Shown here one piece after another: positions 1-15,520 of a stretch of DNA of 25,658 nt. The notes beneath the pieces were generated by a model that had not been told where the DNA came from, made no database searches, and saw nothing but the letters and a program-made list of their open reading frames with translations. A program made the translations under genes and the position numbers. Numbering within the stretch: the first letter of the stretch is position 1; every line of letters begins with the position of its first letter. Origin of the DNA: a virus; the IMG/VR virus record IMGVR_UViG_3300007345_000243, positions 1 to 25,658 of that record; one strand, 5' to 3'.

Positions 1-2407
1 CAAACTCAGGTAGTGCCATAGCGCTAGGCGCTTGCGTCTGCTCTTCGAGTTCTCGCATTCTTTGGCGCAAATCAAGGTTCTCTTCACCCATCTGCGTCGG
101 CATCCCTTTTTCGTCAAACTCTGTGGGCTTTTTTTCTGGCTCCATGCGTTCCGGTACATCAATGCCACGGGCTGTAGCTTGAGTTGCGAGGTAGATATAT
201 GGCTTGACTTTATCTAGCCCAGCGCGCATTTCCAATGCGTACTCTGGGTCAGTGATTGCCCGAATCAAAGAATCTTCGTATGCCTCTCTCTGAAAGTTGA
301 TCGCGGACTGAGACATATCATCGAAGCCTCGCACCACTAATCTTTGGGGTATCTCAATCAGCGATCTCAGCGCCGTAAATACCGGCCTCGATAAACCAGA
401 GGCTTCCTTCTCTATCGCGCGCATGGTTGCCATGAGCGGTTGGGTTGGCGAGCCGCCTTGAGTGGCTATATAGCTAATAGCCTGCGCCATTTCTAATGCT
501 TCCTTAAACGCAATAAATTCCTCTGGGCCAAGAATTTCTTCAAATGCGGCAATCTTTCTCGCTTTTTGTTGCTCTCCTTTGCGACCAACTTGGAAAGCCC
601 TTTTCGGGTTGCTTACTCCGATACGGCTAAGGAATTTATTGGGCACGCCAAAGGGATCTGTGGTGCTCATTATTACGTCATTTAGCTGAGTTCTCAGCCA
701 ATTAGCTTTGAGGTTTTGCCAGACCGTTGGGTCTTCTCCCTGTATAAGCTCGCGCAACTGACGCAGTTCAGCCGGTTTTGCGTTGCCAGTGAACATTCTC
801 TGAATCAGCGGCAACGAGCCAGCCCCCCCCTTCTCTGCGGCTTTTGCAAGACTGTTGATGAGAGAGCGCTCTAAAATTTGTAGGTGACCAGTGTCTTGAC
901 TATAAACCTTTGTGGCTCGGTTATAGATTGGATTAGCAACTTTCATTGCGTCCGTTATTTCGCCTTTAAACCCAGCCAATGGGCCAGCCAAACTTTTCTG
1001 CCCCTTACGCATTGCCCCCTCATAAAGGGGGCTTAAGTCCTGCGTAACGGCATTGTGCAAAGCCCTGAGATCCGACTTGTAAGCGCCCGTTGTTGGGTCA
1101 GTAATTGTTTCTAGCGCCTGTGACATCAATTTACGCATTCTTTTGCCCGTGGTGGGGTCATCCACCATAGCTTTAATTTTGTCGCCGATTGCAGAAATGT
1201 CGACAACCAATCCCTCTTCTTCTGAGAGCTTGAATGCTTCGTCATATATTTTTGTGGCGCGTCTTTTTCTTTCCTCTAACAATTTTTTTAACACGTTTTG
1301 TGAGGCTTGTGCCAAGTCTTCACCAAACGCGGTGCCCCCTCGCGGCCCCATTTCTTGAAGCGTCTCACCGATCTTGCCGGTCATTAGCTTTCCTTCAGCA
1401 ATTTCGTCAAAGAAAGCGTTTAGGTGATCTTCCATTTGCAGGGCGCGATCATTGTAGAAATCAAACAGCTTCTGAGATGAAGGTTGCATTTGCAGATAAC
1501 GCTGTATTTGGCCCGCATTGCTTCGGAGCCCCTGCGCTTCTCCCCGAGTCAAGGGGAAGCCAAAGCGATCCCGCGCCATAGCAACCATGTCGTCTACGCT
1601 ACTACCTCCCTCAGTGAGAAGAATGCGGAGCATATTCGCTCCATCGTCGCCGGGAAACTCCGTACTTACTTTGTTTAGCAAGGGACGGGCACGACTGAGA
1701 AATCCAGCGCCGATAGGTATCGCTCCAAACGCGCTACTCAACATCAAATCATTGCTCAACTGGCCCACGTTTAAAGGAGGCCCATCAAAGGCCGCGCTAA
1801 TGCCTGCGCGTGCCGCCGCACCCACTGATCCGCCTGTGCCAGTTCCCGCCGCTCCCCCAATAACAGCGCCGGGCAATCCACCGCCCGGTAACGTAGTTAC
1901 TGCCCCAGCCGTCATGCCGACTGCCCCGCCTATAAGTTCTGGGACGAATTGAAGCGCAGGCCCTGCAAGACCGTACAAATCCATTGCGTCACCAAAAATT
2001 GAGTCTTTAAACTCTTTCTGTATTTCGCCCGTGTAAGGATCGAGATATGCAATCTCATCGTCCTCATCCAAAAAATACAGATCGGACAAATTCATATCGT
2101 CGGCAAGCTCGGGAAATCTTTTTTCTGCAAGCCAGTGCATTTGATACGCCTGATCGTTTGACATACCCGCAAGCAACGCGCGAGAAGCGCCTGACTTCTT
2201 GGACTCTGCTTTCGCTCGTCTGGTCTCTTCTTCTTCGGCCATGCTTTCAACACTAGCTAAAGCGCGTTGCTGGCTTGCCGCAACACTGCTCTGATGCTTG
2301 CTTGCAAGGGGCCCCTCGCCAGCGGCCAAGTCTGCTTTTAGCCGCTCACCTGCCTCTTCATCCGTAACAGTGTACGTAATGCCGTCAATATATACTTTCG
2401 TTGCCAT
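1..2407 (-). CDS. Large internal virion / DNA-ejection protein, 3' end outside window (partial)
   Basis: Reading the minus strand from the ATG at 2407 gives one open frame of about 802 codons that runs off the left edge, so the C-terminus is missing. The start is fixed by a TGATG junction with the previous gene. Residues 1-130 are charged. Residues about 159-206 form a Gly/Ala-rich segment with repeated GxxxG spacing (GGAVGMTAGAV, GAVIGGAAGTGTGG), which looks like a glycine zipper able to enter a membrane. The rest is long, charged and mostly helical, with segments such as DPTVWQNLKANWLRTQ and FGVPNKFLSRIG that I recall from marine phage internal proteins. Size, position after three other large virion proteins and the membrane-type segment suggest a protein injected with the DNA, comparable in role to P22 gp16/gp20 or T7 gp16. 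No lytic transglycosylase motif is visible in the part present. The ejection role is inferred, not shown. Confidence 0.72.
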   Translation of the reverse strand, partial: MATKVYIDGITYTVTDEEAGERLKADLAAGEGPLASKHQSSVAASQQRALASVESMAEEEETRRAKAESKKSGASRALLAGMSNDQAYQMHWLAEKRFPELADDMNLSDLYFLDEDDEIAYLDPYTGEIQKEFKDSIFGDAMDLYGLAGPALQFVPELIGGAVGMTAGAVTTLPGGGLPGAVIGGAAGTGTGGSVGAAARAGISAAFDGPPLNVGQLSNDLMLSSAFGAIPIGAGFLSRARPLLNKVSTEFPGDDGANMLRILLTEGGSSVDDMVAMARDRFGFPLTRGEAQGLRSNAGQIQRYLQMQPSSQKLFDFYNDRALQMEDHLNAFFDEIAEGKLMTGKIGETLQEMGPRGGTAFGEDLAQASQNVLKKLLEERKRRATKIYDEAFKLSEEEGLVVDISAIGDKIKAMVDDPTTGKRMRKLMSQALETITDPTTGAYKSDLRALHNAVTQDLSPLYEGAMRKGQKSLAGPLAGFKGEITDAMKVANPIYNRATKVYSQDTGHLQILERSLINSLAKAAEKGGAGSLPLIQRMFTGNAKPAELRQLRELIQGEDPTVWQNLKANWLRTQLNDVIMSTTDPFGVPNKFLSRIGVSNPKRAFQVGRKGEQQKARKIAAFEEILGPEEFIAFKEALEMAQAISYIATQGGSPTQPLMATMRAIEKEASGLSRPVFTALRSLIEIPQRLVVRGFDDMSQSAINFQREAYEDSLIRAITDPEYALEMRAGLDKVKPYIYLATQATARGIDVPERMEPEKKPTEFDEKGMPTQMGEENLDLRQRMRELEEQTQAPSAMALPEF

Positions 2408-3855
2408 CAGTAACCTTGCCCTGTGGCGTCTTGATCTTCAAAGTTGCCCTCGCCACCAAACTTAATCCTGTAAGCAGAGGCCGCCTTCGGTTCAGCCGCC
2501 GCAAAACCGCGAAGCTGGCTTAGTTCGTCTGGAGACAAAAATTGATTTTCTGGCTGTCTCTGCCAGTTGGCGCTCCATTGATTATATATTCGATTGCGCT
2601 CCGCATCGTCTCGCGCGGAATACATTCTCTCCGCAAGATCATCATCATTGTTGTAATCTTCAAACAGCTTTTGATTTAGCCTTGCAATCCTGTTGAGGTA
2701 ATCTGCCTGCGCGATTAAGCCTTCTTTTGACGAAGCGAGGCCCGGCGACGCCGAAATAAATAATCGCATTTCCATCTCAGTGATTGCGCCTTTCGTATCG
2801 CCAATCAACTGCATGGCGATACGAGTCCCTAGCGTATTTAGCAATTCTTGATCCGATATTTCGGGGTCTGCGCGAATGCCAAGTTCATCCAATATTTTTC
2901 GAGGCCCTAAAGTTTTTTGCTCTAACAAGCCAACATTGTCATCTAATCGATTGACTATGACATTCATCATGTCAATAAGCCTGCTTTGCTCCACGCCCGC
3001 GTCGTAGCTAGTTCGCATTTCAGTCAGGCTTTTAGACAGCGCCTTGCCCTCCTCATCTCCAAACTTGGATTGACTTCCCATCGAAAGAGCAACACCGGGA
3101 GTTTTTACCTGCACGGCATTTAACAACTCGGGGGCGATTGGTCTGCCCTGTGAATCAGTTCCACCCAAAACCAACGCCATGTCGGCAGGGCTGTTTTCAT
3201 TGATGGTTGTAGTGCGACGCTCTACTTTGCCTGTGGCAGGGTCGGTGTAATCGTACTCATACGTCTCATATTTTGGAGTCCGGTTAGCCATCTCCAGACG
3301 CTTGAGCGAGAATTGATTCAAGTAATCTTGGGCCTCTTTTTCGTCAGTTTTCGCAAGCTCAAAGGCTTTCAAGGCAACCTGCTGGTCAACTTGGCGCTTT
3401 TCTTGCCTATGTGTCCGCAATCTTTCGTTAAACGCCGCAAATCCAGTTCCCGCAGAACGGAAAGCGCCAGCGTCGGCAGGTGCGGCAAGCATGGCCGCAC
3501 CCAAGTCGGACGCCAAATCAAAAAGAGTCGGGCGCGAAGAACTCGATAGCAGTGGAGCAAGTTGTTTTTTGTAGCGCTCCATCCCATAACTAAATGCTTC
3601 GTCTCGTTTTTCGCGTTGAGTGTCAAGAGCCTCTTGCTGTCTTTTTGAAATTATTTCTTCTGCTTGTTTACGAAGTCGATCAATCCGCTCTTGCTCTGTC
3701 TCGGTTTCTGGCTCTAAATAACCCCGAAACGGGCTCGGATTAGGCAAGCCTGCGGCAGGCGGTGCGGGCGTCAAATATCCTTGAAAGGGATCAGGTGTGC
3801 CGCCATTGGCAAATCCGCGAATCTGTTCTTCTAGTTGCGCTCTTGTCATGCTCAT
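2407..3855 (-). CDS. Probable internal virion / ejection protein, 482 aa
   Basis: This is a mostly helical, charged protein with no signal peptide. The ATG at 3855 (MSMTRAQ) lies one base after the TAA of the preceding gene, the same TAA-N-ATG arrangement as at 7162, so I prefer it to an in-frame start at 3885. The N-terminus has a short duplicated motif, PDPFQGYLTP (residues 21-30) and PSPFRGYLEP (40-49). Residues 53-100 and 143-192 are predicted helical and probably coiled coil. The segment around 352-392 (GDTKGAITEMEMRLF, then SASPGLASSKEG) resembles a motif I recall from other phage internal proteins. It lies between two other large ejection-type proteins, and its stop overlaps the next start by one base. 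It could instead be a peripheral tail protein. No enzymatic motif was found. Confidence 0.6.
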   Translation of the reverse strand: MSMTRAQLEEQIRGFANGGTPDPFQGYLTPAPPAAGLPNPSPFRGYLEPETETEQERIDRLRKQAEEIISKRQQEALDTQREKRDEAFSYGMERYKKQLAPLLSSSSRPTLFDLASDLGAAMLAAPADAGAFRSAGTGFAAFNERLRTHRQEKRQVDQQVALKAFELAKTDEKEAQDYLNQFSLKRLEMANRTPKYETYEYDYTDPATGKVERRTTTINENSPADMALVLGGTDSQGRPIAPELLNAVQVKTPGVALSMGSQSKFGDEEGKALSKSLTEMRTSYDAGVEQSRLIDMMNVIVNRLDDNVGLLEQKTLGPRKILDELGIRADPEISDQELLNTLGTRIAMQLIGDTKGAITEMEMRLFISASPGLASSKEGLIAQADYLNRIARLNQKLFEDYNNDDDLAERMYSARDDAERNRIYNQWSANWQRQPENQFLSPDELSQLRGFAAAEPKAASAYRIKFGGEGNFEDQDATGQGY

Positions 3856-3856
3856 A

Positions 3857-6800
3857 TTAAGTGCTCGGCGGTTGTTGTTGCCCATATGCTAATTGAGTCG
3901 GCGGCGGGTAGCCATAACCGCCATATTGCGGCTGTCCGTAGCCCCCAAAGTAGTTACCAAGTGCGCCAAACATGGACAATCCAGTACCAACGGCCGCCTG
4001 CAATGGGCTTGGTGCCGGTCCAAATTGCGTGTTGATCTGGCTCGGGCCCGTTTGTTGACCGGCAAACTGCATGAATGGCAGGAGCGCCTGATACTGCATC
4101 AGAGGTGCCTGCTGTGCCTGCAACTGAGCCTGATACTGAGCGTCAAGCTGTTGCTGTTGATTTTGTTGTTGCAACGAGCCAAGTCCAGAAAGCATTTGCA
4201 CATCTTGCGCGCCCGCCGATTGAGCCTGACCGCCAAGACCTGCTAAGCCTGCCGCTTGATTCGCCAGCGCGTTACTTGCATTCGATCCGTAATTTCCGTA
4301 AATATTTGCCAAATTCTGCGCCTGAGTGCCCTGCATCCCACCTACAAGCTGACCGTATTGAGATTGAGCGCTTGCAAGATTTTGAGCGCCTTGAGCCTGT
4401 AGCCCGCTTGTAAGCTGGCCTGTTTGAGATTGATAATTTGCAAGATTTTGGCCCTGTTGTGCCTGTGCCGCCCCCAAGTTTCCAAAGCCAGTAGCAACCT
4501 GACCCGCCGCACTCAAAGCGCCTGCTCCAGCTTGATTCAAGCCCTGCGAGGCGGCTTGACCCAATCCAAGTGCGGTTTGCGCTTGATTGGTGCCAGCACC
4601 GTAAAGCTGATTAGCTTGCTGTCCCAAGAGACTTCCAAACTGTTGCTGTGCGCCAAGCTGTTGACCTGCGGACTGTTGTTGCGCGTTCGCAAGGTTTGTG
4701 CCAGCGCCCAGCATCTGCTGGCCTGCGGTCAACTGCTGTTGAGCCAATTGATTTTGTGACGCCAAACGCTGTGCGGCAGTTTGACCAAGAGTTGAAATGC
4801 GCTGTTGTGAGGCGGCGTTTTGCGCCTGCGCGGCACTCATCTGTTGGGCAGTCATAGCCTGCCCCGCGCCGAATCTTTGCCCTCCCACTGCGGCGGTCTG
4901 TCGACCAAGACCTTGTTCTGCTCCAAATCGTTGCCCTGCAAGCGCTCCTCGCTGACGAGCAAGAGACTGAGTGGCACCCAGTCTTTGGGCGGCCGCATCG
5001 CTCAGAGCCCCAGCCATGCGCTCGCCTGCGGCACTTTCTAGCTGAGCCTGCTGACCAAGCTGGCTGGACAGCGCCTGTCCCGCGCCGAAACGGGTGGTTG
5101 ACCCAGTTCCAAGTCGAGACGCCAAAGCCTCTTCTGCCCCAAACCGCTGTCCAGCTAAGGAGGCTAATCCAGTCGCCGCCGCTCGTTGAGCATCCTGTTG
5201 ACGAGCAAACTCACCGAGAGCGGTTTGTTGAGCCCGCCCAAAGCCCTGTGAGCGGATTCCCGCCAAACTCTCCCCTAAGCCTCTGCCTAACGCCTCACGG
5301 CGTTCTGCGGCCGTCAGGCGAGCCCTTGATCCAAAAGCGGACTCCCCGCCTGTCTGGATGTCTCGCGCCCGTTGCGCGACATCAGCCTGATCTCCCGCTT
5401 TGAGCACATCATCAATAGTCTGTTGAACCACGGATTGCTCAAAAGGGTCATAAAACGCTTGGGTCGTGTCAGGGTCAAAAGCTCCCGTAGTCTGGCGCAA
5501 GCGCGCCTCAGACTCTCCGAGTCTACCCCCAAGCCCTGCGGTGGCTCCCGCTGTCGTAAGCTCTGACCCCATTAGTCCTCGGTCAAGCGCTCCGATTGCA
5601 CTCCGTAGCTGGCCTGTCGCTAAGTCAAGGCCGGGCGCTAGACCAGAAAGGGCTTGACGGCGCTCTGCCAAAGATCCGCCTAGCTCTTGACCAAAGCGCC
5701 CAACACCTACGCGCTCTTCCGTCAGGGCGCGCTCAAGGTCCGCCCCAAGATCACCAACTGCCCGACCTTCGATCCCAAGAGAGCGATCCAGTTCATTCCC
5801 AAAAACATCTCTGGCTCGGCCCAACGTGTCAGTCGCCGCGCCAACTCTGCGGCCAAGCGCTTGCTCGGCCTGTTGCGCGAGACCTTCGATGGCCCCAAGA
5901 TCCTCTCCGTAACGTCCAGCGGCTCTGCGACCAATGTCTTGATATGCCGTGATGTCGCGACCAAACTCATCAAAAAGGCGACCCCGAAGATCACCTATTT
6001 GCCCCAATTCGCCTTGAAATTGATCAAGTCCAGACCTTAAAAAATCTTGCTGGCCCCCCAAATTAGAACGCAACTCATCGGTTGACCGCTGGGTTAGCGC
6101 GCCTGACCGATCAATGCCAGAAAGCAATCTATCTAGTCCAAGCTGTCTGTTAATTGCGGCTTCGCCTGCGGCTCCTTGAATAGATCCTAAGCCAGCCTGC
6201 TGAGAAGCCACTTGTTGCCCTAATCCAGCTTGCAGGGAGCCAAGGCCACGTCCCAACCCGCCAGACAGGGATCTCAAGGCATCTGCATAACCAGAACCAA
6301 GCGTTCCTAGCCCCTGTTGTAATCCACCAGAAAGCGTATTAATCGCGGTGTCATAACCGCCCAGCGCGCCCACTTGCTGTTGTAAAGCGTTTTCAAGAGC
6401 GGCAGTGCTTTGACCATAAGCGGATTGTGCGGCGTTTAGGTAAGGCTGTATTGCACCGACGTTTTGTTGCGCCAAATTCATTGCGGCAAGTTGTTGCTCG
6501 CTCAGTCCAGCAACAGGCTGTTGATATACAATGGGAGTGCCGTCTGGATTGAAGAAAGTATTTTCAGCGGCTTGCATTGCCCCTTGGATGTAGCCCGGCT
6601 GATCTCCCAAACCAAACAACAACTGTTGCATGATTGGGTCCATAGATCGGCTTTGCTGGGTGACGCTAGGCACATAAACGCCGGGGTCAAGGGTGCCTAT
6701 GCCGACATTTCCGGTTTGGCCAGCACCAGTACCACCAGTACCACCAGTAGAAACTTCGTCTCGGTCATCAATGCCATTGCCGTTTCCGTCTTGAAAGTCG

Positions 6801-7162
6801 CCCGTTCTTACCGAAGACCCAGCACCAGCTACGGGTTGCTGTGTTGCCCCCATCTGGGCAAATATCTCTGCGTCCGAAAGACCTTGAATGCGAGGGTCGT
6901 TTGCCAACACCTCCATGGTTTCGCCAGTGGCAGGGTTAGTAATCGTGCGGTTGCCCCCAGATTGCGACTGCATGGTTTGCTGATAGTTTTGAACAGCATT
7001 TGGGGTTTGCTGAATGAAAGAATCAACATCCGCCTGATTACCTGTAAACCCATAGGCTTTTTGAGTAGCCATCGGATACGAGTTTGCCCCATGGACGGCC
7101 GCTACATACGCTTCTTGTTCTGGGGTCAATTTGTTGCCTTCTGGCAGGGGCATCAGGCTCAT
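3857..7162 (-). CDS. Giant Ala/Gln/Gly-rich repeat protein, probable DNA-ejection conduit protein, 1101 aa
   Basis: I chose the ATG at 7162 because a GGGGG-containing Shine-Dalgarno stretch lies just upstream and the previous TAA ends two bases before it. The upstream in-frame start at 7195 lies inside the previous gene. Residues 1-65 form a small N-terminal region. Residues 125-136 (DGNGNGIDDRDE) form a calcium-loop-like motif inside a Gly/Thr linker. Residues 255-342 hold four 22-residue units. Residues about 568-655 are a conserved-looking stretch (YDPFEQSVVQQTIDDV, SGFG-type turns) seen in marine phage virion proteins. Residues 673-906 are 13 units of exactly 18 residues, followed by three 22-residue units (907-972). 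The tail is Gln-rich and ends in a Gly/Tyr/Pro sequence. Such periodicity fits very long continuous helices. A role as an ejected channel or internal core protein is inferred from size, composition and neighbours. Confidence 0.65.
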   Translation of the reverse strand: MSLMPLPEGNKLTPEQEAYVAAVHGANSYPMATQKAYGFTGNQADVDSFIQQTPNAVQNYQQTMQSQSGGNRTITNPATGETMEVLANDPRIQGLSDAEIFAQMGATQQPVAGAGSSVRTGDFQDGNGNGIDDRDEVSTGGTGGTGAGQTGNVGIGTLDPGVYVPSVTQQSRSMDPIMQQLLFGLGDQPGYIQGAMQAAENTFFNPDGTPIVYQQPVAGLSEQQLAAMNLAQQNVGAIQPYLNAAQSAYGQSTAALENALQQQVGALGGYDTAINTLSGGLQQGLGTLGSGYADALRSLSGGLGRGLGSLQAGLGQQVASQQAGLGSIQGAAGEAAINRQLGLDRLLSGIDRSGALTQRSTDELRSNLGGQQDFLRSGLDQFQGELGQIGDLRGRLFDEFGRDITAYQDIGRRAAGRYGEDLGAIEGLAQQAEQALGRRVGAATDTLGRARDVFGNELDRSLGIEGRAVGDLGADLERALTEERVGVGRFGQELGGSLAERRQALSGLAPGLDLATGQLRSAIGALDRGLMGSELTTAGATAGLGGRLGESEARLRQTTGAFDPDTTQAFYDPFEQSVVQQTIDDVLKAGDQADVAQRARDIQTGGESAFGSRARLTAAERREALGRGLGESLAGIRSQGFGRAQQTALGEFARQQDAQRAAATGLASLAGQRFGAEEALASRLGTGSTTRFGAGQALSSQLGQQAQLESAAGERMAGALSDAAAQRLGATQSLARQRGALAGQRFGAEQGLGRQTAAVGGQRFGAGQAMTAQQMSAAQAQNAASQQRISTLGQTAAQRLASQNQLAQQQLTAGQQMLGAGTNLANAQQQSAGQQLGAQQQFGSLLGQQANQLYGAGTNQAQTALGLGQAASQGLNQAGAGALSAAGQVATGFGNLGAAQAQQGQNLANYQSQTGQLTSGLQAQGAQNLASAQSQYGQLVGGMQGTQAQNLANIYGNYGSNASNALANQAAGLAGLGGQAQSAGAQDVQMLSGLGSLQQQNQQQQLDAQYQAQLQAQQAPLMQYQALLPFMQFAGQQTGPSQINTQFGPAPSPLQAAVGTGLSMFGALGNYFGGYGQPQYGGYGYPPPTQLAYGQQQPPST
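4247..4444 (-). repeat. Three 22-codon repeats following the 18-codon array
   Basis: Residues 907-972 form three 22-residue units that begin LANYQSQ, LASAQSQ and LANIYGN. The first two end in QN. Twenty-two residues equals two hendecads, so the helical periodicity changes at this point from 18 to 22. Confidence 0.7.
4445..5146 (-). repeat. Thirteen consecutive 18-codon repeats in the giant virion protein
   Basis: Residues 673-906 divide without gaps into 13 units of 18 residues. Examples are RFGAEEALASRLGTGSTT, RLGATQSLARQRGALAGQ, RFGAEQGLGRQTAAVGGQ, MLGAGTNLANAQQQSAGQ and QLGAQQQFGSLLGQQANQ. The shared pattern is roughly [R/L/M/Q][F/L]GAxQx[L] at the start and AxGQ at the end. Units differ at the DNA level, so the array is old and kept by protein-level constraint. 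Confidence 0.8.
6137..6400 (-). repeat. Four 22-codon (double hendecad) repeats near the N-terminus of the giant protein
   Basis: Residues 255-342 divide into four 22-residue units. Two consecutive ones begin LSGGLQQGLGTLG and LSGGLGRGLGSLQ. The flanking units keep similar spacing of Leu and Gly with less identity. Confidence 0.65.
6722..6748 (-). repeat. Three-unit 9-bp tandem repeat coding TGG
   Basis: The plus strand reads agcaccagt, accaccagt, accaccagt. In the gene this codes a Thr-Gly-Gly linker just after the calcium-loop-like motif. Changes in copy number would stay in frame. Confidence 0.8.
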
Positions 7163-7163
7163 G

Positions 7164-9158
7164 TTAAGCCCCCTTTGCTTGTGGCGCTTGAGCAAACTCA
7201 GAGAAGAGGTCCATCATCTTGTACATCAGATCGATGCCAGCTTCTTTGTTTTCGCCATTCATCGGCGTTAAGGTGACAATGCCGTCTTTGTTCTTCATGT
7301 CGAAGGCACCAGCGCCCCGCACTGATCGGCCAGTCATCACAAACTCGCCGTCAGAAAGCATCGCAGGAATATCATCGCTGATCTCCGTGCCTTCGCCGTT
7401 GATGTCTCCCGTCATGCGAATGAAAAGCTCGCCGTCCATGTCTCCACCTTCAGACCTATAAACCGCACCGCCTTGATTAAACATCGGGACTTGCTGTGAC
7501 TGCGGCAACATCCCCGACTGCGGCCCCGTCATCGGTTGCGGCAACATCCCCGTAGGCGGCGTGTAATTAGGAAGAGACATGGCTTGGTTGATGTCATTCG
7601 GATTGGGCGCTAACAAAGTCTCGCGGGGGGTAAACTGTTGCCCTGCTGGAATAGGCTGGCCACCGCTTAGGGTTGGGAGATTGTTAGGCAATAGGCCAAA
7701 CTCCACTGGATTCGGTGCCTGCTGTCCCATTCTTTTAGCAAGCTCCGCCTCAATATTATACCGGCCAGCCGCATTCATCTGCGTCAGAGGAGTAAGTGGC
7801 ACACCCTTGCGATCCTTCGCCTCGTCATATGCCAGCTTAGCAAGCAAGCCAGATAATCCCGCGATGCCAAGCGTGCCTCCGAGTCCCATGCCGCCTGCTC
7901 CTCCGCCGCCTCCGAGCAGGCTACTCAAGAGGTTGCCCTGCTGACCGCCTTGCTGACCTCCGCCTAAGCCGAGGATGCCGCCAAGATTTTGTAAGGCGTT
8001 TTGATTATCATCGCCAGCAAAAACAAACTCTCCAAGAGACCCCAAAAGCCCCTTGCCAGTGTAGGGGCTGATCGCGCCAGATTGTTGCGCTTGAGCTAAA
8101 ATTTGCTCTGGAGTCAGGCCAGCCGCTCCGCCCTGCCTAATAATCTCTTGAATCTGTGTGTTGTTTTGAGCGGCCTCGGTCAAAATATCTGCCGCGCTTT
8201 TTCCTCCTCCTCCAATGCCAAAGGTCTCTCCGAGGTTGCCCAACAACCCTTGGTTGTCGGCACCCGGCATAATGTACTCGTAAATGTCCCCAAAAATATT
8301 AGAGCCGCCACCTGCTGAATTAGTCAAGTTTGCAATTCCTCCGCTTCCGCTCCCAAATGTGCCGCCGCCAAAACCGGGGACTGAAATACCGCCTTTTCCG
8401 CCAAAACCGGGTATTTGGAAACCGCCTCCTCCGCTTCCGCCGGGCATAGGTGCGGCGAGAGCGGCTATCCCTGCTAAGGGATTGCCAGATTTAATGGCGT
8501 CATAAGCCGCATACCCTTTGGTAATCATGGCCGCAGGCACTTGCCAAGGGCCGGGTATAAATTGCGCGACTTGGGCGATAGGCTTGACTACCTTCTTAGC
8601 AACTTTTTTTACAGACTTCCAAGTCTTGCTAAACCAACCAAATTCTTCCAATCCAGTAATGGGGTTAAGAGAAGCGATACCAGAGCCAACTACATATTGT
8701 TCTGGATCTAAATCAAGCTCCTCGAATCTTTCGCCGACAATTCGCTCAAAGTCTGCATCAGCCATCATCTGCGGAGGCAAGACAACCTCGCCGGGCGCTA
8801 AGTGAGCCAAAGTAACGTCAGGGCCTCGGCCCGCCTGAGAAAGTTGCACGGCCATGTCTGCCATGGGCGCTTGAGTCCCAACTTCTGCCGCTTGAGCGAA
8901 GCCCAAGGCAACCTTGGCGTCGAGCGGATCGTCCGCTGTGGCGGCATCCTGCATCAGCGTAGCAATGGTTTCTCTCAGCCCAGTGTTGGGGTCTGTTGGC
9001 ATTTCCGCCGACATTGCGATGTCAGATTGAACTTGAGGGTCTTGAAGATCAATTGCGTTGGTGTCTACTTCTCCGCCCCGCGCCATCATCATCGGCGCTT
9101 GTGGTTGTGCAGGCATTCCAGCCATGGCAGAAATTCTTTGTTGAAGAAATTGATTCAT
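7164..9158 (-). CDS. Probable ejection / internal virion protein with cationic amphipathic helix, 664 aa
   Basis: The ATG overlaps the previous stop as ATGA. In order: residues 27-31 ARGGE; residues 118-129 AHLAPGEVVLPP; residues 178-200, a strongly cationic amphipathic helix (KTWKSVKKVAKKVVKPIA); 204-240, hydrophobic; 238-290, Gly-rich; 295-319 and 378-402, a duplicated element with DNQ, NLG and GxGGG in register; 410-442, a hydrophobic Gly/Leu segment; and a C-terminal region with NQGGAV (561-566) and MLSDGEFVMTGRSVRGAG (600-617). The paired GGxV and LxxGExV motifs at both ends are familiar from phage internal and tail proteins. The cationic helix and hydrophobic Gly-rich segments suggest contact with the host membrane, so I infer a DNA-ejection role. 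It could also be a structural plug of the tail. No catalytic motif is visible. Confidence 0.62.
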   Translation of the reverse strand: MNQFLQQRISAMAGMPAQPQAPMMMARGGEVDTNAIDLQDPQVQSDIAMSAEMPTDPNTGLRETIATLMQDAATADDPLDAKVALGFAQAAEVGTQAPMADMAVQLSQAGRGPDVTLAHLAPGEVVLPPQMMADADFERIVGERFEELDLDPEQYVVGSGIASLNPITGLEEFGWFSKTWKSVKKVAKKVVKPIAQVAQFIPGPWQVPAAMITKGYAAYDAIKSGNPLAGIAALAAPMPGGSGGGGFQIPGFGGKGGISVPGFGGGTFGSGSGGIANLTNSAGGGSNIFGDIYEYIMPGADNQGLLGNLGETFGIGGGGKSAADILTEAAQNNTQIQEIIRQGGAAGLTPEQILAQAQQSGAISPYTGKGLLGSLGEFVFAGDDNQNALQNLGGILGLGGGQQGGQQGNLLSSLLGGGGGAGGMGLGGTLGIAGLSGLLAKLAYDEAKDRKGVPLTPLTQMNAAGRYNIEAELAKRMGQQAPNPVEFGLLPNNLPTLSGGQPIPAGQQFTPRETLLAPNPNDINQAMSLPNYTPPTGMLPQPMTGPQSGMLPQSQQVPMFNQGGAVYRSEGGDMDGELFIRMTGDINGEGTEISDDIPAMLSDGEFVMTGRSVRGAGAFDMKNKDGIVTLTPMNGENKEAGIDLMYKMMDLFSEFAQAPQAKGA

Positions 9159-9472
9159 GGCGTACTCACCGTTACGGTCCCAACATTGGCCGTTATTCCG
9201 AGCCCAGTCGGATAAGACTGATGCTCATATAAGTTACGGAACACCGTGCCGTCAAAGGCTTGGTGTATCTCAAGCGTAGTATTGTAGATTATGGCTCCCG
9301 TGGCAAATTGCAGTTGGGAGATTTCTGTCGCGTTAAAGTGCGGCGAAATGCTGAAATCCACGCCACCAAGGTTAAGTTCCAGTATTCTAACAAGCCGGTT
9401 GAAAATGTCTGCATCAACTTTATTGCCCGGTCTTGCGCTGAGCGGAAGCTGAGTGGGCAATAAAGCGCTCAT
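9155..9472 (-). CDS. Conserved tail-associated protein of unknown role, 105 aa
   Basis: The start chosen is the ATG at 9472 (MSALLPTQ), which forms a TAATG junction with the nozzle gene. The longer frame from 9523 lies entirely inside that gene and is not needed. The protein has an N-terminal helical part (residues 15-33, DADIFNRLVRILELN) followed by beta-rich sequence with many Thr, Val and Ile. No known motif is recognised. Its position between the nozzle protein and the first ejection protein, with translational coupling on both sides, suggests a small virion component of the tail tip or a partner of the nozzle. That role is inferred only from context. Confidence 0.7.
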   Translation of the reverse strand: MSALLPTQLPLSARPGNKVDADIFNRLVRILELNLGGVDFSISPHFNATEISQLQFATGAIIYNTTLEIHQAFDGTVFRNLYEHQSYPTGLGITANVGTVTVSTP

Positions 9473-11367
9473 TATCGCCTGCCACTTGGTTGTATATCGA
9501 CACGGGTCGCCCCTATCCTCCATTTATATCCAAGCGCGTCGCTTCCCGTTAGATCATCGTCACTCTCAAATCGCAAAACAATTTGACGAGCGCGGCTCCG
9601 AAGGTTTTTGAACTGAGTGGTCGCCTCAATCTGAGAGGTGCTGTCCGTAATAAGCGAGTCGCCGGGGTAGTTCCTGCGCTTCAAGACAAAGTTGACCGCC
9701 GCATTGTTTGAAACGGACGGCTCGAATATAAAATTGACGTCTGGAATTACTTTTTTGACAAAACTGAAGTCTTCACCAGAGCCGACATCGATGTCTGCGC
9801 TTTCAATAAATACATCAGACATTCCTGCGTTCAAATCGTCGTAGCCCGTTTCATGCTCAAAAATAAATTGTTCAGATGAGCTTGTGGCGGCCGCAACTGG
9901 GGCGTCCTCAATGCCTGCATCGAGCCATGCGTATCGCACCAAGCTCCCAATAGACCAGTGGTTTTCTTCATAGTTATAAATGATGTAGCGAGATATTTCT
10001 TGCGTGCCATCCTCAATGCTTGGATAGAAAAACCACATTTCTCCATATTCCGAGTTCAAGCCCATGTGACACTTAAACGCTTGACTCAAGTCCAGATCGT
10101 TAAAAACATATTCTTGCACCGTGCAAGGTAGTTTTTGGACTGCGCCGTTGTATACATAAAACCCAGTTTTAGAGGCAAAAAACACGCCGCTAGGCGCTGT
10201 TACCGCCGCTTTTGGACCAATAAGCCCCGCGCCCTCGTTCACCAAGTTGACAGCAAAAGTCAAAGGCGGTCCGATAAAAGCCATGGAGTACAGGCTGGTA
10301 TCTGTCCAGATCAATATTTCCTGACGGCTTTTGGTCGCACCCACGATAAATGAGCCCGAAGAAATCCTAAGTGAACCGGCAGAATTAGTGGCTAATGGCT
10401 CAAAATCCAACTCATTTTCGGCGTCAGAAAAGGCTACAAGCATGGGGTCAAGCACGCCCGTGCGAGACCCCCCGCTAATAGGATCCGCGCCAAGCACAAT
10501 AAGGTGTCTGTCGACTTCCGAGGTAATGACTTGCAGGCCCACCGTGGGAACTAAGTTTGCCCCGCTAGTTGTCGATAATTTTGCCGCTCTTGTGCCAAAG
10601 CCTCCACTGTCCAGCCAACGGAAAATGCCACCGCCGCGAGGATTGATAATTAGATTTTCGCCAAAATTGTCGTGGGTCCAGAGTCTAAGTTGATTAATGT
10701 CAGAAGTCGGGGAGGTAGACCCCCACCCGCCATCTCCCCACGTTCCAACGGACCAGCCCGTGGATGCCAAATAAACATTTAGCCCTACATTTATTTGATA
10801 GGTTCCGACAACCGAAGAGCCGCCATTGCCGGTGTCAGAAGAATTTGCAGTTACGGTGACACCAGAAGTATCTTTTGCTGTAATTTCGTAAGCGTTTGCA
10901 GAGGTTACCAAACTAATTTGATATTCTTGATTCATTACTGCCGCAGTAATGTTGCCGCCGAGCGTGGCGGCCCCACTAAAAGTTACAAAATCATTATTGA
11001 CTGCGCCATGCCCAGTGTCGGTCACAGTAATTGTAGAAGAGCCGTCTGAGGCGGAAAAAGTAACATCTCCTGCGCTCGTTGTAGAGCGAATCGGCGTCAC
11101 ATCATTGTAGGCATTACCTTCTTCGATGTAATACTTAAACGTCGTGCCGAGTCCCAGATACCGAGTGCCGCCCAACTCAATCCAGCTATGCAAAGCGCGG
11201 CAAATGCCAAGAAAAGCATTAGCGCCCAGCTTAGTCCAGCCACCAATTTTTTCGACTCTGCCTTTGCGGAACCTAACAAGGTTGCCATCAACCCAGCCTC
11301 CCTTTGCCGAGTAATCTGTAGCCTCTTTGTCAATCCCCGGATTAAAATTAAGCGTTTGCAGTGGCAT
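9472..11367 (-). CDS. Tail nozzle / packaged-DNA stabilisation protein, P22 gp10-like, 631 aa
   Basis: The N-terminus (NPGIDKEATDYSAKGGWVDG, then NLVRFRKGRVEKIGGW, residues 9-44) is the signature start of P22 gp10-like nozzle proteins that close the tail after packaging. The rest is beta-rich with repeated aromatic motifs such as GVFFASKTGFYVYNG and HWSIG, as expected for a beta-propeller-like fold. Residues about 97-192 look like an inserted Ig-like beta domain (GHGAVNNDFVTFSGA, NQEYQI), found in many marine phage homologues. P22 gp10 is 472 aa, so the insertion explains part of the extra length. Gene order (adaptors upstream, ejection proteins downstream) supports the assignment. Translation probably depends on coupling, because the start lies six bases after the preceding stop with no strong Shine-Dalgarno sequence. 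Confidence 0.75.
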   Translation of the reverse strand: MPLQTLNFNPGIDKEATDYSAKGGWVDGNLVRFRKGRVEKIGGWTKLGANAFLGICRALHSWIELGGTRYLGLGTTFKYYIEEGNAYNDVTPIRSTTSAGDVTFSASDGSSTITVTDTGHGAVNNDFVTFSGAATLGGNITAAVMNQEYQISLVTSANAYEITAKDTSGVTVTANSSDTGNGGSSVVGTYQINVGLNVYLASTGWSVGTWGDGGWGSTSPTSDINQLRLWTHDNFGENLIINPRGGGIFRWLDSGGFGTRAAKLSTTSGANLVPTVGLQVITSEVDRHLIVLGADPISGGSRTGVLDPMLVAFSDAENELDFEPLATNSAGSLRISSGSFIVGATKSRQEILIWTDTSLYSMAFIGPPLTFAVNLVNEGAGLIGPKAAVTAPSGVFFASKTGFYVYNGAVQKLPCTVQEYVFNDLDLSQAFKCHMGLNSEYGEMWFFYPSIEDGTQEISRYIIYNYEENHWSIGSLVRYAWLDAGIEDAPVAAATSSSEQFIFEHETGYDDLNAGMSDVFIESADIDVGSGEDFSFVKKVIPDVNFIFEPSVSNNAAVNFVLKRRNYPGDSLITDSTSQIEATTQFKNLRSRARQIVLRFESDDDLTGSDALGYKWRIGATRVDIQPSGRR

Positions 11368-13783: not shown

Positions 13784-14478
13784 TAGGCAATCCTGTAAAT
13801 AGTCAAGTCAGGGGCTACACGGAAGCTCGCACGAGACTGATCTTGTGACAAGGCCCGCTCAAACTCCTCTTCATAAAGTTGTTTCAGCAAAGGCACCTTA
13901 TCAGGGGTGCGTTTCAAAGCTATGTAGTAGGCAAGCCCAGCCGCAAGGCATGGATAAAATCGAAACGGAACTTCCATGGTATTTGTTCCCACGTCAGCGT
14001 CATCCATGCGACTCAGTACATTTAAGTAAATGGTGTAAGCGGAGCTTTTGTCTGGCGCAGGCCACACCGTAATCGTCGGAGTTATCTGTTTGTCGACAAA
14101 ATACTGATTTGGCTTTCCGGTGCTTGTTTTCGTTGCAATGTGCGCGTATTCCGCTCGCGACAGCTTTGTTAAAGGCAAGTCTGAGGTCGTACCTGACACG
14201 GTTTCTCTGACAAACACATCAAGCACGTCAATCACCGAAGTGGGATTTGTAGTATCAATTGTGTATACAGTTGTATCCTGCACTGCACTTATTGTTTTTT
14301 GATTGATAGTCCACTGATTTAGCCCGCGATTAGCCCACTCCGCAAGCATCAGGTTAAGGGATCGCTGTGCCGTCTTGAGATCGTAGCCAGTGCGAAGCTC
14401 AAGCCCGCATCGCTCAAACGCTTCTTCTACATAATCAGCTACATCTAATTCAAAATCTTTACTGCCGCTCGTCGCCAT
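13783..14478 (-). CDS. Head-to-tail adaptor, P22 gp4-like, 231 aa
   Basis: I start at ATG 14478 (MATSGSKDFELDVADYVEEA), because the in-frame start at 14493 lacks a Shine-Dalgarno sequence and this family usually begins with this sequence. The N-terminal helices (EEAFERCGLELRTGYDLKTA, then RSLNLMLAEWANRGLNQWTI) are the signature of tail accessory factor / adaptor proteins. A beta-rich middle (residues about 57-155, including DLPLTKLSRAEYAHI and ITVWPAPD) follows, then C-terminal helices (FRFYPCLAAGLAYYIALK, LLKQLYEEEFERAL). P22 gp4 is 166 aa, so this is longer but has the same order. It would bind the portal and connect it to the nozzle. It overlaps the upstream gene by 20 bases. Confidence 0.65.
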   Translation of the reverse strand: MATSGSKDFELDVADYVEEAFERCGLELRTGYDLKTAQRSLNLMLAEWANRGLNQWTINQKTISAVQDTTVYTIDTTNPTSVIDVLDVFVRETVSGTTSDLPLTKLSRAEYAHIATKTSTGKPNQYFVDKQITPTITVWPAPDKSSAYTIYLNVLSRMDDADVGTNTMEVPFRFYPCLAAGLAYYIALKRTPDKVPLLKQLYEEEFERALSQDQSRASFRVAPDLTIYRIA

Positions 14479-15154
14479 CTTTAGCACCCGCATATAGGTT
14501 ATTGAAAACCTGATTTACGTCCAAGGTGTAGTCTAAATCAGATTTTGAGTAATGGATATGTTGCGAGGGTCTGAAGTCAGGGGCCCCTTCGCCGGTTTCA
14601 AACCATGCGGGGTGCGTTACTCGCACTCGATTGTTTGGCAACGCTACTATGTTGCCTGTCCATGGTCCCGCATCTAGCAACTCAAGAACGTGACTCTGCT
14701 TATGCTGAGCGGGATCGTCGGCGATCTCATTCTCTGCATAATCGACAGTGAAATAATATTTGGCGGGATACATCTCCCCGTCGATCATGGCAAGCCAAGG
14801 ACACGGTTTCGCTCTGTCGAGCGTATAAACAGCATGATGATGAGAGCTACAATCCCATGGCTGAGCCGCCCAGACAGGCATAGGCTCTGGCCACTCCTCA
14901 AATGGCGTGTCGCCCACCAGCGCCGTAATGGGCATCCGTGCCCACATCGCGCCCCCATGTATATTAGGGTCATCCGTATCGTCAGCCTCGCAACCAGTAA
15001 AAATTAATTGAAAGCTAAGGCATCTCGTAGGCATGGTGGTGACAGCAATAGCCATGGCGTGAAGAAACTCGCCGTGGTATTTTTGATGGTTATGCGTGTA
15101 CTCCCTGCGTACCCAGCATTTAAAATGCGGGATATTACTTTGCAAATAAGCCAT
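14459..15154 (-). CDS. Conserved marine-phage protein of unknown function, 231 aa
   Basis: The sequence begins MAYLQSNIPHFKCWVRREYT and is rich in His, Trp and acidic residues (HNHQKYHGEFLHAM, DCSSHHHAVYTLDR). I recall near-identical N-termini in many uncultured marine phages, always in the virion module, so the family appears well conserved, but I know of no assigned function. It has six Cys (C13, C45, C55, C101, C118 and none in the C-terminal half except by recount), many His and several DxD-like acidic patches, so metal binding or an enzymatic role is possible. It starts directly after the previous TAG and overlaps the adaptor gene by 20 bases. No signal peptide or membrane segment is visible. 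Confidence 0.65.
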   Translation of the reverse strand: MAYLQSNIPHFKCWVRREYTHNHQKYHGEFLHAMAIAVTTMPTRCLSFQLIFTGCEADDTDDPNIHGGAMWARMPITALVGDTPFEEWPEPMPVWAAQPWDCSSHHHAVYTLDRAKPCPWLAMIDGEMYPAKYYFTVDYAENEIADDPAQHKQSHVLELLDAGPWTGNIVALPNNRVRVTHPAWFETGEGAPDFRPSQHIHYSKSDLDYTLDVNQVFNNLYAGAKDGDERQ

Positions 15155-15520
15155 CTATCTCCCGTATAAGCCGCTCTTTTTGCCTGACGGTGGCCGCACT
15201 CGCATTTTGCCGCCCTTTGATCCGCCTTTGGTCTTCATTGCGCCGCCTTTGGCCATTCCTTTGGGCTTCATAGGGCCGCCCATGGAGCCGCCTTTTGACA
15301 TCATCTTGCCGCCTTTTTTCATTGGTTTAGCCTTATCAAATAGTTCAAGTTCTTTGTCAGAGGTTGCTCCTTTCGCAAAGTTTATCCGATTTTTGATAAA
15401 ATCCGAAACGTCTTCGGGAACGGTTTTTTTGTTTTTGGAATCGCTTAGCTTTCTTAACAACTCCGACTTTTCTTCTGTCGAAAGTTTCTTGCTTTTTTTC
15501 TTAGGCCCTTCAGTCTTCAT
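15155..15520 (-). CDS. Basic KGG-repeat protein, 121 aa
   Basis: Residues 1-65 are helical and charged (KLSTEEKSELLRKLSDSKNK, then FIKNRINFAKG). Residues 66-121 are almost entirely Lys, Gly, Met and Pro, with repeated KGG (KKGGKMMSKGGSMGGPMKPK and more) and end GLYGR. The C-terminal half must be disordered and strongly positive, so it may bind DNA or RNA or an acidic capsid interior. A Shine-Dalgarno sequence (AGAGGA) precedes the ATG. It is the last gene of the small basic protein island and abuts the next gene. Function unknown. Confidence 0.65.
   Translation of the reverse strand: MKTEGPKKKSKKLSTEEKSELLRKLSDSKNKKTVPEDVSDFIKNRINFAKGATSDKELELFDKAKPMKKGGKMMSKGGSMGGPMKPKGMAKGGAMKTKGGSKGGKMRVRPPSGKKSGLYGR

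Follow-up and report, generated by a model that had tools for sequence, protein, structure and literature searches.

Length-locked repeat arms suggest an antiparallel helical hairpin in a putative ejection protein of short-tailed phages

A protein encoded in a 25,658-nucleotide stretch of viral DNA (IMG/VR record IMGVR_UViG_3300007345_000243, hereafter the window) carries two long repeat arms whose lengths are locked to each other among its relatives. We consider, with a probability of about 0.7, that this short-tailed phage protein folds into a straight rod, an antiparallel two-helix hairpin; most likely it is one of those proteins that are kept in the head and leave it before the DNA at ejection. 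The putative helices, their 3.6-residue period, the position of the turn, the antiparallel order and the pairing of repeat units were deduced from sequence patterns, and the ejection role, which is most likely, from gene order and one remote family match. The protein belongs to short-tailed marine viruses and probably enters the host along with the DNA on infection. Our main finding, the N arm together with the lock on arm length, was missed in the preliminary description of this DNA, which reported a repeat array at residues 673-906; that array is real, but it forms only part of one arm.

The gene lies in an open frame on the minus strand (window positions 3857-7195), in which an ATG at 7162 is common to the relatives and gives a protein of 1101 residues, numbered here from that codon. 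The same start context (MSIMP or MSLMP) was found in L001, L002 and L004. On the basis of two alignments (A1 and A2), the N-terminal region (residues 1-217), in which autocorrelation detected no 18-residue periodicity, begins with a weakly conserved Gly/Asn-rich head and continues with a conserved stretch, MDPIMQQLLFGL...ENTFFNPDGTPIVY. GESAFGSRAR is the best-conserved motif of the protein, the tip and both ends are well conserved, and the distance from LGESE to the turn was 58-60 residues in nearly all relatives. The layout of the gene and its neighbors is shown in Table 1.

Table 1. Positions in the window of the hairpin-protein gene, its parts and the neighboring genes
Feature	Position	Strand	Basis or remark
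P22 gp10-like tail stabilization protein (phrog_3287)	9472..11367	-	E 2.3e-65; upstream marker of ejection cluster
664-aa upstream protein	7164..9158	-	Conserved neighbor
Whole hairpin-protein gene	3857..7162	-	1101 aa; ATG start MSLMPLPEG; stop included
N-terminal region, residues 1-217	6512..7162	-	Alignments A1/A2
N arm, residues 218-605, AGLS... up to turn	5348..6511	-	Autocorrelation, leave-one-out scores, length covariation with C arm
Conserved tip, residues 548-660, LGESE... to FARQQDA	5183..5521	-	Fixed length, arms variable
Turn GESAFGSRAR, residues 606-615	5318..5347	-	Near-invariant in A1/A2; center of mirrored indels
C arm, residues 606-1016, turn to QQAPL	4115..5347	-	Length lattice among relatives
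Ten supported 18-residue units, residues 673-852	4607..5146	-	Leave-one-out scores
Distal C arm, residues 853-1016	4115..4606	-	Mainly 11/22-residue spacing; windowed autocorrelation, lags 11 and 22
C-terminal domain, residues 1017-1101, QAPLMQYQALLPF...PSPLQAAVGTGLSMFGALGNYFGG	3860..4114	-	Conserved; common to DSL-LC04 cognate
492-aa downstream protein	2407..3885	-	Conserved neighbor
Downstream protein of >800 aa, runs off window	2..2407	-	Position of DSL-LC04 'DNA transfer protein'

Autocorrelation of residues 673-906 confirmed the 18-residue period that had been proposed for this segment, with z = 5.5 at lag 18 for identity and 6.9 for BLOSUM62 scores, above composition-matched shuffles, in which the 95% limit for the best lag was 3.3. 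Lags 36 and 54 were also high (z of 4.4 and 6.2, respectively, for identity). The earlier count of thirteen exact 18-residue units should be reduced to about ten: leave-one-out scoring supported units 1-6 and 8-10 (p < 0.02) and gave a weak result for unit 7 (p = 0.08), but no support for units 11-13 (p = 0.11, 0.72 and 0.57). Likewise, the supposed switch to 22-residue units could be seen as a change to 11/22-residue spacing, but from about residue 853, earlier than claimed. The overlooked N arm carries 18-residue repeats of its own, as strong as those of the C-arm segment (z = 6.2-8.4 at lag 18); they are clear at residues ~347-564, and spacing is a mixture of 11, 18 and 29 at ~220-346. Lags of 7, 11, 18, 25, 29, 36 and 47 residues can all be composed from 7 and 11, as is typical of long helices that pack side by side. 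Comparison with homologs, which had been suggested as a check, showed a conserved unit length: in all of L001-L021 the top peak fell at lag 18 or at 54, three times that value, despite protein lengths of 582 to 1101 residues, and among the proteins compared by autocorrelation (L001-L022) an 18-residue top peak was absent in the distant L022 alone.

Scans of IMG/VR yielded more than 200 loci, of which many overlapped one another on shared contigs. In 66 distinct complete relatives, the arms were measured by three anchors, with the N arm starting at AGLSPDQ, the turn at GESAFGSR and the C arm ending at QAPL. Pairwise alignments revealed that length differences occur in matched pairs, one in each half of the protein. 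The N arm ranged from 100 to 406 residues and the C arm from 122 to 428; although the arms vary four-fold, the C arm exceeded the N arm by 20-23 residues in 63 of the 66 relatives. The C-arm length could be written as 122 + 18k in all but five of them. The C arms off this lattice were those of 342 and 360 residues (one 22-residue step, present in both arms) and that of the window protein (411 residues, one extra residue). The raw correlation between the two arm lengths was 0.996. On a tree built from conserved blocks only, which required at least 24 changes of length class, phylogenetic contrasts of the arm lengths gave r = 0.87 and a slope of 0.99, with the exceptions included.

It should be noted that the strict lock holds for the GESAFGSR clade and is not a general rule, because several proteins depart from it: in L183 only the C arm has lost 36 residues, its sisters L184-L189 being balanced; L176 and L177 have extra residues on the N side, outside the repeats; the window protein is itself offset; wider relatives with an AFGGSR turn show a looser arm difference, mostly 22-28 residues; and the repeat proteins of Roseobacter phages CRP-901 and CRP-902, possible relatives of the window protein family, are one 18-residue unit apart in the C arm only. 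L022 and L102 also lie far off the lock.

Some of these loci merit separate description. L183 (positions 56-1348) is on a contig 90-97% identical to the balanced sisters and may represent either an evolutionary intermediate or an assembly error within the repeats. Among long-arm members, only the window protein has an offset of 23 (others 20-22), which might reflect a one-residue bulge or a sequencing error in the region 5146-5318. L102 (3061-6396) has a 1111-aa open reading frame of the wider family with different and unbalanced repeats (433/569), apparently a separate expansion. Nearly perfect 18-residue repeats (RQARFGAEDVMRGQFMED) are present in CRP-902 gp34 (L025, 18329-19768) and CRP-901 gp33 (L254, 501-1883), which come from cultured phages, occupy a similar gene position and have 12-residue repeats on the N side.

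Not only the sizes but also the positions of the changes were matched between the arms. For 18 indel pairs, which we picked from the pairwise alignments and in which the repeats blur gap placement by up to one unit, the distance from the turn in the C arm minus that in the N arm averaged 6.8 residues (SD 7.0). The mean deviation from mirrored placement was 5.3 residues compared with 67 under random placement, and none of 20,000 trials reached 5.3; when positions were scaled by arm length, r was 0.986 and none of 20,000 permutations was as high, although such p-values are indicative, given our choice of pairs, the blurred gaps and the tree branches that some pairs share. Across the analyses, the correlation of indel heights was 0.986-0.997. 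For example, L066 and L069, whose gene DNA is 87-95% identical, are exactly 36 residues apart in the length of each arm, with the two indels at 92-128 and 95-131 residues from the turn. Where two places are affected, their order is reversed: between L008 and L010 the N arm loses 54 and then 36 residues, and the C arm 36 and then 54, and L048 and L016 differ in the same manner. Such a reversed order is needed by antiparallel packing and points to it.

In the window protein, the periodicity of large hydrophobic residues was strongest at 100.0 degrees for either arm (3.6 residues per turn), and in nine relatives at 100.0-100.5 degrees, which argues for straight, unsupercoiled helices. An AlphaFold model of the window protein contained helices at residues 222-603 and 618-1035. 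Short breaks aside, the helical chain was interrupted mainly at the turn motif (604-617), and the model of a short relative, L077, whose arms have 101 and 122 residues, was also broken at GGESAFG. Thus, the earlier statement that 18 residues make five turns of a straight helix without drift agrees with both the hydrophobic period and the models. Monomer prediction, which had been recommended, returned the helical arms and the break at the turn at low confidence (mean pLDDT 55.7 for the window protein and 49.9 for L077) and no confident packing between the arms. A profile search of the PDB revealed no sequence relative, its matches being chance hits to coiled coils with E values of 0.37 or more. 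The other arrangement considered earlier, a stack of short hairpins, was rejected: a single 18-residue unit is too short for a helix pair plus turns, the helices of both models are long and continuous, interrupted chiefly at the turn, and a single long hairpin is in keeping with the mirrored indels.

Equal arms, mirrored order and a constant short tip are all needed by an antiparallel two-helix hairpin, and their joint occurrence argues for this fold. In the proposed structure, the N arm would extend out from the base, the chain would reverse at GESAFGSR and the C arm would return alongside the N arm. One 18-residue unit would correspond to five helical turns, or about 2.7 nm of rod, and each unit of one arm may pack against a unit of the other, so that units would be gained or lost in evolution as pairs at equal height. 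With a rise of 0.15 nm per residue, arm lengths computed from residue counts extend from 15 to about 61-64 nm in 2.7-nm steps, which corresponds to rods of about 15 to about 61 nm, and the arms of the window protein are about 58-62 nm. We also considered that the stacked 18-residue pairs might form an extendable ejection-protein rod, whose 2.7-nm steps are tuned to something in the virion or in the envelope of the host; we regard this as somewhat less likely than not.

Antiparallel pairing could instead occur between neighboring chains of an oligomer, with each N arm against the C arm of the adjacent chain, as could be the case in a helical barrel. Such an arrangement predicts the identical length lock and mirrored indels, suits the rings and tubes that ejection proteins form (PMC8954989, PMC11440229), and would agree with monomer models in which intrachain packing is not confident. 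On the other hand, the short constant tip links the two arms directly, which makes pairing within one chain simpler, and we consider the inter-chain arrangement rather unlikely. It appears improbable that the arms are independent helices that never touch and merely bridge an identical distance outside the protein, for instance a shell or envelope: selection on total length would account for equal lengths, but it does not require indels to fall at the same height.

The gene of the putative hairpin protein sits in an ejection cluster behind the gp10-like tail protein, and the order gp10 - 122 aa - 664 aa - hairpin protein - 492 aa - 802 aa is kept in dozens of relatives. The same layout was found in phage DSL-LC04, whose 'stabilization protein' is 39% identical to the gp10-like protein. 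The window portal matched phrog_1216 and, just below the cut-off, an SU10-type portal model, and the capsid protein matched Mu gpT-like models. By portal, the nearest cultured phages were HTVC027P, 023Pt_psg01, DSL-LC04, HTVC023P and the Roseobacter phages CRP-901/902. The window hairpin protein had no match in Pfam or PHROGs, and tblastn of this protein and L018 against cultured phages gave none either; the link to these phages was made through gene order. In DSL-LC04, the counterpart stretch comprises a gene annotated as tail tape measure, a 294-aa protein, a 646-aa protein and the 'DNA transfer protein'. The 294-aa cognate (WJZ48114) matches phrog_4287, 'DNA ejection protein' (E 6.9e-9), a family that relative L010 also matched at E 0.0021, and it has a C-terminal domain in common with the hairpin family (hhalign probability 95.6, E 1.3e-8, 92 columns). 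The preliminary guess of a phage ejection protein is in agreement with both the gene order and the phrog_4287 match of this cultured cognate. With regard to the neighbors, no correlation was observed between the length of the 664-aa protein and arm length (rho -0.04). Values for the gp10, 122-aa and 492-aa proteins were 0.49-0.59, uncorrected for relatedness and not counted as tracking, and gp10 ranged merely from 620 to 633 residues among relatives.

Two further features of the 664-aa protein were observed. It has a Gly-rich middle and a C-terminal DDIPAMLSDGEFVMTGRSVRGAG motif that is common to several families annotated as tape measure, and its counterparts among relatives vary from 147 to 1082 aa (ATG-start open reading frames).

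The neighborhood also bears on whether the protein could be a tail tape measure that sets tail length by 11- and 18-residue units. Units of these sizes have been described in tape measures (PMC5099701, PMC3271669), and the 664-aa neighbor has weak tape-measure matches; however, the surrounding genes are of the short-tailed type (SU10-like portal match and gp10-like protein), none of the window proteins searched matched a tail tube or baseplate gene, the pattern of Trp/Phe markers described for tape measures is missing, and a tape measure gives no reason for mirrored paired changes of two arms, all of which makes this role very improbable. Finally, a structureless Gln/Ala/Gly-rich sequence evolving by slippage, as the biased composition and low AlphaFold confidence might suggest, is hardly credible, considering that period 18 exceeds composition-matched shuffles, that slippage cannot coordinate two different arms across a conserved tip, and that the tip and ends are under clear conservation.

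Returning to the hairpin reading, the DSL-LC04 cognate and its family phrog_4287 resemble the window protein in gene position behind the gp10-like gene, in the conserved C-terminal domain and in a turn-like AFG-(G/S)-x-R motif, and the C arm of the cognate also exceeds its N arm by about 20-22 residues. In contrast, the cognate arms are short (86 and 106-108 residues, the latter 108 if the anchor is set by hhalign columns) and lack 18-residue units, and the family model gives no direct match to the window protein. The P22 genes behind gp10 code for ejection proteins (PMC8402733), and Sf6 gp12, a homolog of gp20, forms a 150-angstrom tube (PMC8402733). P22 gp7/gp20/gp16 and Sf6 gp12 are alike in this gene cluster and in the role that would be expected here, an internal protein providing a conduit through the envelope, but the likeness is one of gene position, no sequence similarity having been seen, and register-locked repeat arms have not been described for them. 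The Sf6 tube is about as long as the shortest of the putative hairpins, and the longest rods would be about four times its length.

For the paired-unit principle, the closest precedent, by analogy, is provided by bacterial chemoreceptors (MCP), with SMC arms second. Chemoreceptor hairpin classes have 12 to 32 paired heptads and measure 126-336 angstrom (PMC6628036, citing Alexander and Zhulin 2007). They have an antiparallel hairpin, a conserved tip and length classes set by paired units in common with the window protein, which is an analogy and not membership, whereas their unit is a supercoiled one of 7 residues and not 18 (3.6 per turn), and the protein and its role are unrelated. SMC arms are likewise antiparallel, constrained in length and conserved at the far end (PMC5344682), but are heptad-based, have a functional period of about 91-99 residues and belong to a DNA-loading ATPase. 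Tape measures of TP901-1 and p2 are helical phage proteins with 11/18-residue units that vary in number (PMC5099701, PMC3271669), but they come from long-tailed phages, carry Trp/Phe markers and form a single array, mirrored arms not having been described.

Tail tape measures already provide examples of 11/18-residue repeats (PMC5099701, PMC3271669), so that a phage helix built on an 18-residue unit is no novelty by itself, and the preliminary remark that no described phage ejection protein has this pattern should be taken with that caution. What is new is a register-locked double array in a protein of short-tailed phages, with a four-fold length range and a turn located from indels alone; our literature search, which covered open-licence papers, brought up no phage ejection protein described as having a register-locked hairpin. 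If true, an extendable rod would be a ruler-like principle not described for ejection machines. Paired changes in distant arms also provide structural evidence from sequence where structure prediction fails to resolve the packing, and, for each relative, allow the fold, the turn, the pairing register and the rod length to be predicted. It now becomes testable why related short-tailed phages would need internal rods that differ four-fold in length, with head size, envelope thickness and packing around the DNA as candidate length setters. L066 and L069, two units apart in each arm, and the one-sided L183 offer natural experiments on how compensating changes arise.

Two minor observations were made elsewhere in the window. 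A gene at 14459-15154, amid structural genes, matches phrog_3704, annotated as ferredoxin (E 1e-28), a label that may be wrong. A 33-base tandem repeat of 2.6 copies (15209-15295) was found within a short open reading frame (15155-15520).
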